64,000 bases of DNA from Haladaptatus sp. ZSTT2 (lineage in GTDB: Archaea > Halobacteriota > Halobacteria > Halobacteriales > Halococcaceae), in NCBI RefSeq assembly GCF_037081775.1, contig NZ_JBAMHQ010000001.1:620001-684000 (forward strand), read 5' to 3'. Below, one piece after another: positions 9,774 to 50,929 of this stretch. The translations under genes were made by a program, and so were the position numbers. The notes beneath the pieces are model-generated. The model worked only from the letters and a program-made list of their open reading frames with translations. It did not search any database and was not told where the DNA came from. Positions within the stretch are counted from its first letter, which is position 1. Each line of letters opens with the position of its first letter.

Positions 9774-10201
9774 TGCTCCCACCTACGGAACGGGCGCTTA
9801 TACCGGTGATGGACTCGGCCAACATGACTGTCCGTTCGTGACGGCGTGTGACCGTTCATGCGCAGAAGCTCACCGTTTTTACCACCCTTAATGCATTTGT
9901 AATGAGATTTTACCGACGTATTATCCCCCAGATAATAATGCGGGGCTACCGAATAGGCATAGCTGTCCACGTTAGTTGACGGCATCCGCTCACCGGTCGA
10001 CTAACGGGACGTAGCAGACGGCACAGAGACAAATCGGCTTCGCCACAGGGAGTTCCCTGTCGCGTAGCAAGGGACGGTAGCACACCAACATCGTCATCAC
10101 ATCCGTGCCACCACCCTTCCTGCAGATGGTGTCGCTCCCGGAGAGCCGAGTCTCACCCGTCTCTTTTCGCGCCAGGTACGCTTGGGGCATCCACGCCGTG
10201 C
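9774..10201. other. Non-coding stretch with several inverted repeats
   Basis: No convincing gene in about 430 nt between cysK and the ATP-grasp gene, both read leftward. It is AT-richer than its neighbours around 9880-9970. It contains TATTATC/GATAATA arms (9919-9937, 5-nt loop), an 11-bp near-perfect stem CGTTAGTTGAC/GTCGACTAACG (9970-9980 with 9996-10006), and ACAGGGA/TCCCTGT (10045-10060). The cysK promoter must lie in its left end. The rest could hold a small RNA or a decayed element; neither can be decided here. Confidence 0.5.
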
Positions 10202-29233: not shown

Positions 29234-30163
29234 TCAGTCAGCCGCCTGTGGGGTTGGGCCAGTGTTTTCGAGCGATTCGGTCACCCACTCGACGGCGTCT
29301 TGGGCCGCCTTGCGGGTGTTGATTTGCCCGAGGCCGGGTTCGTACTCGTTTTTCGCAATCTGGAAGAACTCGTCCCAGTCTAGGTCCTCCTCGATGACTT
29401 CGTAGCTCCCCGTCTCCTCGTCGAAGTTGATGCGTGGGTACTCGGGGATTTCGAGGCCGTAGCGCTCTGCTTTCGGGATGTAGACGGTGAGGAACTCGTT
29501 TCTGAGTTCGTCGTTCGATTTGCGCTTTAAGCCCACCTTCGACGCGAAGTCGTGGTGGACGCTCTTGTCGTTGGTCGGGCCGAAGAACTGGATGATGCGC
29601 GGCCACCACTCCTCGAACGCTTCTTGCACTAACTCTTGGTGCTTTTTCGGCCCGGTGCCGAGTTCGCGGAGGATGTGCTCGCCGTGTTTGATGTGGAAGC
29701 CTTCCTCGAAGCAAATCTTGTCCATTGCGTGGGCGTACGGCTCCCAACTCGTGTCCTTGAGCGTCGCCTGGCGGCGCATCGCCGCGCCGTCAACGAAGAA
29801 GCCAATCATCGGCACTTCCCACCAGTGTTCCATCGGGTAGTGAAAGCAGTTCAGGAACTTGCCTTTCCCGTTGGCGAGTTCATCGAGCATCTGCTCGCGC
29901 GTCTTCACACCGAGGGACTCTGCGGCGCGATAGAGCAGTTGACCGTGGCCGATTTCGTCCTGCACCTTCGCGCTGAAGGCGAGTTTGCGGTCGAGGCTCG
30001 GCGCTTGGCGGATGAACGGGCGTTCTAAATACGCGCCCATTATCTCAGAGTTCGCGTGGAACTGAATCATCCGCGTCGCCGCCTCGCGGTATTCCTGGGG
30101 CAGGTCGTCTTTCGGGCTGAACGCCCGCGGACCTGCTCGCTCGAACACAGTATCGAGATCCAT
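29234..30163 (-). CDS. paaA: 1,2-phenylacetyl-CoA epoxidase catalytic subunit PaaA
   Basis: Diiron oxygenase subunit that epoxidises the aromatic ring of phenylacetyl-CoA using O2. The 309-residue ferritin-like protein has the iron-ligand helices RMIQFHANSEIMGAYLERP, KVQDEIGHGQLLYRAAES (ExxH) and KICFEEGFHIKHGEHIL (ExxH). ATG 30163 (MDLDTVFERA) is the start: 16 extra in-frame residues further upstream lie in the promoter. It is the first gene of the epoxidase operon and diverges from the regulator gene across the palindromic TATA/operator at 30220-30243. Confidence 0.96.
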   Translation of the reverse strand: MDLDTVFERAGPRAFSPKDDLPQEYREAATRMIQFHANSEIMGAYLERPFIRQAPSLDRKLAFSAKVQDEIGHGQLLYRAAESLGVKTREQMLDELANGKGKFLNCFHYPMEHWWEVPMIGFFVDGAAMRRQATLKDTSWEPYAHAMDKICFEEGFHIKHGEHILRELGTGPKKHQELVQEAFEEWWPRIIQFFGPTNDKSVHHDFASKVGLKRKSNDELRNEFLTVYIPKAERYGLEIPEYPRINFDEETGSYEVIEEDLDWDEFFQIAKNEYEPGLGQINTRKAAQDAVEWVTESLENTGPTPQAAD

Positions 30164-30219
30164 GATGGAAAATAATAACAGACGATACCGGATACTCGTT
30201 ACCCCGTTCATGACAGGGC

Positions 30220-30243
30220 TTTAAATATTGTGGCGGCCAATAT
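30220..30243. promoter_or_regulatory. Shared paaA/regulator promoter: palindromic TATA box plus 19-bp operator-like repeat
   Basis: TTTAAA (30220-30225) is self-complementary and can serve as TATA box in both directions: about 25 nt before the regulator ATG at 30250 and about 57 nt before the paaA ATG at 30163. It abuts a perfect inverted repeat ATATTG-7 nt-CAATAT at 30225-30243, which would cover the initiator of the regulator mRNA and the BRE side of the paaA promoter. The geometry suggests a site for autorepression or co-control by the adjacent regulator. The repeat is seen; the binding protein is inferred. Confidence 0.55.
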
Positions 30244-30249
30244 CTCCGC

Positions 30250-30906
30250 ATGATCGCCGAGTGCCTCGTCGTCGAGTTTCGCGTAACGGGGGACAATTGT
30301 CCGCTCGCAGACGCCTCGCGGGAGGCTGGGACGACGCTCGTCGCCCGCCCACCTCAACTCAGAGCGGACGGGAACGTCCTCCTCCGCTTCAGCGCCCCGA
30401 CCGACGACGTCGCCCCGATTCTTGACGCAGACGAACGGGTGCGTTATCTCCACATGTCCCACACGGAGGGTCGCTACAACTTTCGCTGCCTCGCAAAACA
30501 GCGCTGCGTCGTCCACGACCTGACAAACGCGGGCCTGCTGGTCGAATCGCTCCAATACCATCGTGGAACCGAGCGCCACACCGGCGCGGTTGTCGGCCGC
30601 GACGTGTTACAAGGGGTTCTCGACACGGTGGCTGCGCGAAACGCCGAGGCCGGGGCCGACGCCGTCGGCGTCACGCTCGAACGCATCTACCCGCTCGGCA
30701 CAGACGACGAGACGACCGTTGCCCAGCAGTGGGACATCACGCCAGCCCAAGAAGAAGCGCTCCGGACGGCCGTGGAAATGGGCTACTTCGAAGTGCCACG
30801 GAAAGTCGATGCCGCGGCGGTTGCGGCGGCGCTCGACATCAGTAAATCCTCGTTCTTAGAACGCTTGCATCGTGGCGAGCGCGGCCTGTTCTCGCAGGTG
30901 TTCTAG
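30250..30906 (+). CDS. Bacterio-opsin activator-type HTH regulator of the phenylacetate island
   Basis: A 218-residue haloarchaeal regulator. The N-terminal 150 residues form a sensor-like region (MIAECLVVEFRVTGDNCPLA, LLRFSAPTDDVAPILDADER), and the C-terminal HTH_10 domain is clear: WDITPAQEEALRTAVEMGYF, VPRKVDAAAVAAALDISKSS and FLERLHRGER. Such regulators often control the gene next door, here paaA transcribed divergently. The mRNA is probably leaderless. An aromatic-CoA ligand is a guess. Confidence 0.87.
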   Translation: MIAECLVVEFRVTGDNCPLADASREAGTTLVARPPQLRADGNVLLRFSAPTDDVAPILDADERVRYLHMSHTEGRYNFRCLAKQRCVVHDLTNAGLLVESLQYHRGTERHTGAVVGRDVLQGVLDTVAARNAEAGADAVGVTLERIYPLGTDDETTVAQQWDITPAQEEALRTAVEMGYFEVPRKVDAAAVAAALDISKSSFLERLHRGERGLFSQVF

Positions 30907-30922: not shown

Positions 30923-31306
30923 CTACCCGGTTTTGTACACGCCGCGGACGCTTGCGACTTCGTTTCCGCCTTCGTCCGCGACCATCACGTCCACCACGCC
31001 AACGGAAGAGCCACAGCGAACCACGTCGGCTTCGGCGTAGAGGTCGCCCGTCCCGGCTTTCAGGTAGTCGATACGCATGTCGATTGTTGGGACTGGCTGG
31101 TCTACGAGCGAGACGAGTGCCGCACCACCGACGGTGTCCGCGAGCGTGAACGCCACGCCGCCGTGGGCCATCAGCTTCTCGGCGTTCCACGAGAGTTCTT
31201 TGCGCATCTCGATGTGGCCTTCGGCGTGGCCGTCTTCGGCTTCGGTGACTTCGACACCGAGGAAATCAGCAAACGGCATCCCTTCGAAGAAGGCTTCTAC
31301 GTCCAT
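30923..31306 (-). CDS. paaI: PaaI-like hotdog thioesterase
   Basis: A 127-residue hotdog-fold acyl-CoA thioesterase beginning MDVEAFFEGMPFADFLGVEV. The catalytic region WNAEKLMAHGGVAFTLADTV contains the HGG turn and Asp of the PaaI group. In phenylacetate pathways it frees CoA from dead-end hydroxylated or cyclised thioesters. The upstream open frame to 31504 is antisense of the hydrolase and is rejected; the ATG at 31306 fits the family. It converges with the regulator gene. Confidence 0.88.
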   Translation of the reverse strand: MDVEAFFEGMPFADFLGVEVTEAEDGHAEGHIEMRKELSWNAEKLMAHGGVAFTLADTVGGAALVSLVDQPVPTIDMRIDYLKAGTGDLYAEADVVRCGSSVGVVDVMVADEGGNEVASVRGVYKTG

Positions 31307-31331
31307 AGTCCGGCAGACGCCCGCGGGGTGG

Positions 31332-32129
31332 TTAAAACTGTGCCCCGTCGCTGAGAAAGCGGTTGATTGGCCGGTCAAAGGCGGCGGCGTGGTGGATGAC
31401 CGCCTCATGGCCAATTGCTGGTAATATCTGTAGCTCGCCGTGGAGTGCCGTGGCTGTCTCGCGGAAGTCTCGCTCTGCGAAGAAGGGGTCTCTCGTCCCG
31501 CCAATCGTCAGCGTCGGCACGTCGATTTCGGGAAGTATGTCTGTCGCGTCGTGGGCGAGACACGCCTCCGCCGCACCGATGAAGTCTTCGGGCGTACTCG
31601 GCCCGCGCGTCACGAGGTCGTAGCCGCGTGCTCCCAGTGAGAAGCCGCGCCTGAGCAGGCCAACTGCGACGGCATCGACGGCCTCGCGGTAGATGAGGTT
31701 CCACTGGCTGGCCCGCCCCCAGTCGCGCCACCGGACGATAGTGTCGTAGCCTGCGCCGCTGAGTTTTGCCGCAGACAGGCCGAGTATCGCACCGGTCACG
31801 AGGTCGGGGCGGACGGCGGCGAGATGCTGGACGATGAACCCACCCATCGAGAGTCCCATGACCGCCGCTGGACCGGTTTCTTTGAGCACATCGGCGTAGC
31901 CAACGGCCATCTCGGCGGTCGATTGGGTTTCGACGCCCATCGGCCGCGAGACCATAGAAACCGTATGGGTGTCGGCGTAGCGCTTGCAGTAGGTGGCGAC
32001 GATGCGGGCGAACCAGAACGTCTCGGTCACGCGCATGAGTGGGTCGTTCAGCCCCGGGATGATGAGGAGCCTATCTGACCCCGCTCCGACCGTGACCGCC
32101 GGGTGTCCGGCGAGCGTTTCTTTTCTCAC
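31332..32129 (-). CDS. Alpha/beta hydrolase of the phenylacetate island
   Basis: A 265-residue alpha/beta hydrolase with the nucleophile elbow MGLSMGGFIVQHLA (Ser in GLSMGG), the acid in GGTRDPFFAERDF and the His in LPAIGHEAVIHHAA. It has a large lid region rich in Arg/Trp (RWRDWGRASQWNLIYREAVD). The start codon overlaps the stop of the amidohydrolase gene by 4 nt, so the two are translationally coupled. A role in hydrolysing a ring-cleavage or lactone intermediate fits the context but is inference. Confidence 0.82.
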   Translation of the reverse strand: MRKETLAGHPAVTVGAGSDRLLIIPGLNDPLMRVTETFWFARIVATYCKRYADTHTVSMVSRPMGVETQSTAEMAVGYADVLKETGPAAVMGLSMGGFIVQHLAAVRPDLVTGAILGLSAAKLSGAGYDTIVRWRDWGRASQWNLIYREAVDAVAVGLLRRGFSLGARGYDLVTRGPSTPEDFIGAAEACLAHDATDILPEIDVPTLTIGGTRDPFFAERDFRETATALHGELQILPAIGHEAVIHHAAAFDRPINRFLSDGAQF

Positions 32130-33485: not shown

Positions 33486-33563
33486 GTGTGCCACCCACTA
33501 GAGGGAGGCTGTCTGTGAGCAAGTCCCTTGCTTGAATGTCAGAAAAATCAGCGTGATTTGGGC

Positions 33564-50339: not shown

Positions 50340-50914
50340 CAGATCTCGCAGAACGCCGTGGCGTCGAGACGGAGGTGTACCAGCCAGCCGAAGACTCACG
50401 CCTTCTCGCTGAGGCAGCGGTGGCACAGGTCACGCCCGACGACCGAGTACTCGAAGTCGGCACCGGTTCTGGCTACGTCGCCGCCACCATCGAACAGGAA
50501 GTCGGCGCGCACGTCATTGCCTGTGACCTGAACCCGCATGCGTGCGAGCAGGCGCGCGAGCGCGGCGTCGAGGCGGCGCGGATGAACCTGACCGACGGCT
50601 TCCGCGATGGCGCGTTCGACGTGGTGGTGTTCAACCCGCCGTATCTGCCGACCGCCCCCGACGAGGCGGGCGACGACTGGATGGAAGTCGCGCTGTCTGG
50701 CGGAGAGAACGGCCGCGCGGTCATCGACCCGTTTCTCGAATCGGTGGGTCGTGTGCTCGCGCCGGACGGCTACGTCCTGTTGCTCGTGAGCACGCTCACG
50801 AACCTCGAAGCGGTGCGCGACACGGCCGCAAGTGCCGGCTTTTCAGCGAAAACCGTGCGCGAAGAATCCTATCCGTTCGAGCGGCTGACCGTCGAACGTC
50901 TCGACCGCCAGTAA
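50336..50914 (+). CDS. HemK2/MTQ2-type protein (release factor) methyltransferase
   Basis: A 192-residue SAM methyltransferase for the Gln of a release-factor GGQ or a related target. The sequence has VYQPAEDSRLLAEAA, the SAM loop VLEVGTGSGYVAATIEQ and the catalytic VVFNPPYLPT (NPPY). The small size and PAED motif fit the archaeal/eukaryotic HemK2 group rather than PrmC. It is co-transcribed with the mscS gene (4-nt overlap). Confidence 0.9.
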   Translation: MTDLAERRGVETEVYQPAEDSRLLAEAAVAQVTPDDRVLEVGTGSGYVAATIEQEVGAHVIACDLNPHACEQARERGVEAARMNLTDGFRDGAFDVVVFNPPYLPTAPDEAGDDWMEVALSGGENGRAVIDPFLESVGRVLAPDGYVLLLVSTLTNLEAVRDTAASAGFSAKTVREESYPFERLTVERLDRQ

Positions 50915-50929
50915 TTACTCAAAGTAATT
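50913..50929. promoter_or_regulatory. Inverted repeat before the methionine synthase pair
   Basis: AATTAC-5 nt-GTAATT, a perfect 6-bp inverted repeat, overlaps the stop codon of the upstream gene and lies 12 nt before the TATA-like AAATATTA (50942-50949). The ATG of the first MetE-like gene is at 50978, so the mRNA has a very short leader. Location just upstream of the core promoter suits an activator or repressor site, perhaps for methionine supply. No known consensus is matched. Confidence 0.4.

Follow-up and report, generated by a model that had tools for sequence, protein, structure and literature searches.

The divergent gvpA and gvpD promoters of haloarchaea are controlled through a GvpE upstream activating sequence (UAS) that adjoins the BRE, and the close spacing between the two is essential (PMC4390858). 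The region between paaA and its divergent regulator gene that we analyzed resembles this arrangement, with a BRE-adjacent site lying between two promoters that face away from each other, one of them driving the regulator gene. The two systems also differ. The GvpE site is 20 nt long and two-part, and GvpE is described as leucine-zipper-like (PMC4390858), unlike the HTH_10 regulator found here. Additionally, the gvp region has two overlapping UAS whereas the paaA locus has a single repeat, which touches the BRE of one promoter on its outer side and occupies the BRE position of the other.

Two relatives of the regulator within the HTH_10 group, DmsR (PMC11218638) and NarO (PMC1447603), are activators. 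Like Bat, DmsR and NarO (PMC1447603, PMC11218638), the regulator here carries a C-terminal HTH_10 domain together with weak N-terminal matches to DmsR_N and BAT, and its gene adjoins the presumed target operon as dmsR and narO are reported to do. Unlike them, it is found in a context of aromatic catabolism rather than anaerobic respiration or bacteriorhodopsin, and its N-terminal matches fall below the Pfam cut-offs. A short palindromic element has been described in Haloferax mediterranei, where denitrification promoters contain the semi-palindrome CGAACATGTTCG, the importance of which was demonstrated by mutation (PMC10062603). The paaA repeat is likewise short and palindromic, has an AT/CATG centre and lies upstream of haloarchaeal promoters, but the arms are CGAA/TTCG there and CCCG/CGGG here, and the gene set is a different one.

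In bacteria, PaaX (GntR type) and PaaR (TetR type) are local paa regulators with palindromic operators, that of PaaR being the 15-bp ACCGACCGGTCGGTT (PMC9493321). The haloarchaeal locus is similar in this respect, yet PaaX and PaaR are repressors of unrelated protein families with a different operator sequence. A 2026 survey of the phenylacetate pathway, which counted only PaaX and PaaR as regulators, reported that most Halobacteria are without a local regulator (PMC13186573). The HTH_10 protein, which occurs one-to-one with PaaA, is a candidate for the regulator reported missing. While local regulators whose palindromic operators lie between divergent promoters are known already, the regulator and operator described here are probably new; no description of either was found in the open-access papers searched. 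Operator and ligand are both known for only a few archaeal regulators. The present module occurs in dozens of haloarchaeal genera, and its 16-bp site between two short, probably leaderless promoters would make it a clean test case for how activation versus self-repression is set by position relative to BRE and TATA.

The paaA locus and its homologues

The sequence analyzed is a 64-kb window of haloarchaeal DNA (64,000 nucleotides; 57–66% G+C in 2-kb blocks), and the relatives found were all haloarchaea. Genome-wide searches were performed on the 3.23-Mb haloarchaeal genome. Two divergent genes define the locus:

29234 to 30163, minus strand: paaA, encoding a 1,2-phenylacetyl-CoA epoxidase subunit (Pfam PF05138, 1.7e-70; NCBIfam TIGR02156, 287.8 bits, cut-off 280)
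30250 to 30906, plus strand: HTH_10 (Bat/DmsR-type) regulator of 218 amino acids (PF04967, 2.1e-16)

We placed the paaA start codon at 30163 and not at the in-frame ATG upstream at 30211, because homologues begin at the 30163 codon. paaA is followed by paaB, paaC and a PF01883 (PaaD-like) gene. A gene for a PaaI-like hotdog thioesterase (30926–31504, minus strand) lies just 3' of the regulator gene and is convergent with it.

Upstream regions were gathered for 129 regulator orthologues, including a few redundant ones, with a scan of genome contigs contributing only four further loci. paaA is the divergent neighbour of the regulator in about 125 of the 129 inspected loci. We then aligned 121 homologous paaA/regulator intergenic regions from dozens of genera, using as anchor the best match to a 16-bp inverted repeat plus the regulator TATA box. 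In the resulting logo the flanks are near 0 bits, indicating that unconstrained positions have diverged, and the peaks fall on the repeat, the TATA and -10 elements of both genes and the BRE of paaA. Anchoring somewhat inflates the conservation of the repeat and the regulator TATA box. The anchoring consensus did not, however, include the paaA elements or either -10 element, and thus their appearance in the logo is independent.

The 19-bp palindrome

The original prediction took as the operator a perfect palindrome beside a TTTAAA sequence:

30225 to 30243, no strand: ATATTG-N7-CAATAT, read here as a chance pairing of the 3' end of the TATA box with the -10 region

The window reads TTTAAATATTGTGGCGGCCAATAT at 30220–30243. 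The letters of TTTAAA (30220–30225) and of the 19-bp repeat were reported exactly, although the two have one A (30225) in common and do not merely abut. Given that its symmetry is perfect, that its sole exact copy in 3.23 Mb is the one at this locus and that its position would let a repressor block initiation, the palindrome might be a real operator of this species or genus only, overlapping the regulator initiation region. We consider this highly improbable. In a genome of the same genus whose regulator is 98% identical (L006), the paaA/regulator spacer differs from the window by a sole change, G30230A, which converts the left arm to ATATTA and leaves ATATTATGGCGGCCAATAT with 5/6 pairs. In the third genome of the genus (L007, regulator 93%) fewer than 4 pairs are left and the palindrome is gone. 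Each of the six pairs is matched in 22–32% of the 121 homologous spacers, which equals column shuffles, and the window alone has 6/6 pairs. Additionally, the arms are AT-rich for another reason, the left one being the 3' end of the regulator TATA box and the right one containing the -10 element.

Since the original prediction was free to pick any repeat, the proper null comprises all inverted repeats with AT-rich arms of 6 bp. Of these, the window contains 6 (4 independent places) versus 1.8 in shuffles, and about two of such size are expected per window, so that one at an AT-rich promoter is unremarkable. We found no second copy of the palindrome within 2 mismatches in the window (shuffles average 0.10), including before the paaK, thiolase or SnoaL genes, where a search for it had been suggested. 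Genome-wide, matches within 2 mismatches number 34 places versus 20 for a reversed control pattern. Judged by these comparisons, the palindrome is two AT-rich promoter elements that are complementary by chance in this species. It was rejected as the operator on the grounds of symmetry broken within the genus and pairing at shuffle level in homologues, whereas the adjoining CCCGTTCATGACAGGG (30203–30218) is conserved. Other perfect AT-rich inverted repeats in the window are located at 9919–9937 (TATTATCCCCCAGATAATA), 33545–33559 (AAATCAGCGTGATTT) and 50913–50929 (AATTACTCAAAGTAATT).

Promoter elements of the two genes

Haloarchaeal promoters are characterized by a TATA element TTWT, a BRE CGAAA and a -10 WW element, and 72% of coding transcripts in Haloferax volcanii are leaderless (PMC4983044). 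The corresponding elements on the two sides of the paaA/regulator region are as follows (values from the 121 regions):

30220 to 30227, plus strand: regulator TATA box TTTAAATA (TTTAWAT 1.36–2.25 bits per column, A 0.75)
30239 to 30240, plus strand: regulator -10 (WW) element, inside the right arm of the palindrome (A/T 0.89, A 0.67)
30176 to 30177, minus strand: paaA -10 (WW) element, plus-strand TT in homologues (1.09/0.98 bits; 17 bp from the TATA-like TA)
30191 to 30195, minus strand: weak paaA TATA-like box, minus-strand GTAT, consensus GTATG (T 0.85, A 0.97 at 30193–30194)
30199 to 30200, minus strand: paaA BRE core, AA on the minus strand (plus-strand TT 0.95/0.98)

On the regulator side, the alignment consensus is TTTAWATA followed by a -10 WA. 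As originally proposed, the TATA box TTTAAATA is well placed for the regulator, with the start codon 30 nt downstream in the window and 29–36 nt downstream in 84 of the 121 homologues, and the regulator transcript is probably leaderless. On the other side, the TATA-like box lies ~26–30 nt upstream of the paaA start, and the paaA promoter is weak and probably leaderless. The spacing from the TATA TA to the -10 element is 17 bp for both genes. With both transcripts predicted to be leaderless or nearly so, the operator would act as DNA and not as RNA.

TTTAAA had been noted to read alike on both strands. However, TTTATA is found in 56 of the 121 homologues versus TTTAAA in 41, indicating that self-complementarity is not the conserved property. 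A TATA box common to both genes is ruled out by paaA's own promoter elements. These separate BRE, TATA-like and -10 elements are conserved beyond the other side of the 16-bp inverted repeat, and a role of TTTAAA or the palindrome on the BRE side of the paaA promoter, as had been supposed, is not supported. TTTAAA beside the repeat also persists where no regulator gene follows, and thus a role solely as the regulator TATA box is not fully proven. Lastly, one set of loci has a longer intergenic region (L010–L027 and L060; family f17, genus g20), with about 150–530 bp between paaA and the regulator; here a GCGACCGCGAGCG...CGGGGGCTTTC element recurs ahead of the regulator, and 29–30 nt past the old TATA box a short leaderless reading frame begins.

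A conserved 16-bp inverted repeat between the promoters

The conserved element between the two promoters was identified through the logo, symmetry, compensated pairs and matrix searches:

30203 to 30218, no strand: imperfect 16-bp inverted repeat CCCGTTCATGACAGGG, consensus CCCGYYYATRNRCGGG

One side of the repeat is flush with the paaA BRE, while the other adjoins the regulator TATA box and ends one base before it. Like a UAS, it is conserved, shows two-fold symmetry and is placed immediately upstream of a BRE. With the centre set between 30210 and 30211, 66% of cells are paired over 8 pairs, compared to 45% or less at any other centre. Compensated pair changes occur in some homologues, four having CCAG/CTGG and three CCGC/GCGG. 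Covariation of the repeat columns beyond the fixed symmetry is weak, with a small excess over shuffles, because most repeat positions hardly vary; the case for symmetry therefore rests on the fixed symmetry and the few compensated changes. All three genomes of the genus share the window copy, whose right half is weak (CAGGG in place of ACGGG) and which retains 6/8 pairs. The distance from the repeat centre to the paaA start is 43–57 bp in 121 of 121 regions and 44 bp in 53 of them.

We searched for the repeat using matrices trained without the window's genus, representing the repeat alone, the repeat with the paaA BRE and TATA-like columns, or the repeat with the regulator TATA box. Within the 64-kb window, the matrix with the paaA columns scored 30191–30218 at 19.5 bits (runner-up 8.1), and the matrix with the regulator TATA box scored 30202–30227 at 24.6 bits (runner-up 10.1). 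The repeat-only matrix ranked the site sixth in the window, and thus it is the promoter context that makes the repeat recognisable here. Using the genus-free matrix, the composite element was not found at other promoters of the 64-kb window, including those of paaK, the thiolase and SnoaL. No further regulon sites were found in the organism's own genome, where the three extra matches examined all fall within long open reading frames, and when 33 genomes were searched for a regulon using the conserved repeat, most of them gave the paaA site plus scattered single matches.

The conservation, symmetry and placement of 30203–30218 suggest that it is probably the operator. The proposal that one protein could act in both directions from this region is retained insofar as a single conserved operator-like element lies between the divergent promoters, but not with the operator originally named. 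A recurring CCCGCGCATGTACGGG-like palindrome was observed separately at G000:C1:2583388-2583411 and also in G189, G073, G133 and G031; in the organism's own genome it is located within long open reading frames and thus is probably coding.

The regulator and its probable link to the repeat

The assignment of the regulator to HTH_10 was confirmed by a PF04967 match of 59.9 bits, against a gathering score of 23.1, at residues 163–214. The N-terminus gave partial matches below cut-off to PF24277 DmsR_N (24.7 bits, cut-off 27) and PF15915 BAT (24.5 bits, cut-off 25.8). The structure model (pLDDT 81.6) has a C-terminal helical HTH; no PDB sequence match was found for the regulator, and the best fold match, 5m86 (Ta1207), has a TM-score of only 0.43 and is not informative. 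A regulator of the PaaX or PaaR kind (GntR or TetR type) was rejected, as Pfam returned HTH_10-related families only and NCBIfam gave no match.

Of 392 genomes in the order, 199 contain the regulator (E up to 1e-30), and exactly these 199 also contain PaaA (E up to 1e-100). This co-occurrence partly reflects shared ancestry, but both proteins are patchy (60 of 95 genera). The recognition helix, KSAFLERL, is nearly invariant among homologues, and we detected no signal of co-variation between the helix and operator type (CCCG vs CCGC). Since the helix is constant across operator types, co-change of protein and DNA could not be shown.

In three genomes (G006, G035 and G046; L170–L172) the regulator is ~3 kb from paaA, and the divergent gene is instead one for a PaaI-like hotdog thioesterase, while the element is still upstream of paaA. 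Similarly, second paaA copies in G225, G293 and G385 (L167–L169) keep the operator and a TTTAAA-like box, and no regulator start was found beside them. Thus, the element serves paaA and not the regulator promoter alone. Such persistence would also be consistent with the repeat being read by a different factor, either a global regulator or a TFB/TBP variant, with the divergent HTH_10 gene as a passenger, and the link between regulator and repeat is drawn from sequence. We regard this as improbable, because the regulator and PaaA strictly co-occur, their divergent linkage is kept in about 125 of 129 loci, and the element was not seen at any other promoter of the genome.

Proposed mechanism

We favor the interpretation, with reasonable though not high confidence, that 30203–30218 is an operator that would be bound by a dimer of the HTH_10 protein (30250–30906), activating paaA and probably repressing the regulator's own gene. 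The presence, conservation, symmetry and promoter spacing of the repeat, its persistence at paaA away from a neighbouring regulator, and the co-inheritance of regulator and PaaA are computed; we infer which protein binds, paaA activation, self-repression and the ligand. In this mechanism, the regulator dimer would occupy the 16-bp inverted repeat directly upstream of the BRE of the poor-TATA paaA promoter, the position of a haloarchaeal UAS. The bound regulator would recruit TFB/TBP and turn on paaABCD when CoA intermediates of the pathway are present. At the same time, the repeat would fill the place of the BRE beside the good TATA box of the regulator gene and limit its transcription.

The main rival to activation retains the same operator and regulator, but as a repressor of both promoters that is released by a phenylacetyl-CoA-type ligand, like PaaX/PaaR. 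Indeed, the PAA regulators of bacteria are repressors that the CoA ester releases (PMC9493321), and the repeat both covers the regulator BRE position and touches the paaA BRE. We judge this alternative unlikely, if the most serious one, since the poor paaA TATA and a site upstream of the BRE resemble activated haloarchaeal promoters (PMC4390858), and most HTH_10 relatives described to date are activators. Activation of paaA is thus favored by its poor TATA, the GvpE-like BRE-adjacent site and the activator relatives DmsR and NarO, while self-repression appears likely because the repeat occupies the BRE position one base before a canonical TATA box.

More tentatively, and with somewhat less than even confidence, we propose that this is an order-wide regulator-operator module, in which the HTH_10 dimer on the 16-bp repeat would activate paaA, shut its own promoter and sense a phenylacetyl-CoA-type compound via its N-terminal domain. 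Such a module would be the archaeal counterpart of PaaX/PaaR, unrelated by descent. Lastly, the repeat lies ~5 bp nearer the regulator TATA box than the paaA TATA-like box, a difference of half a helical turn, which may, speculatively, separate the two effects.
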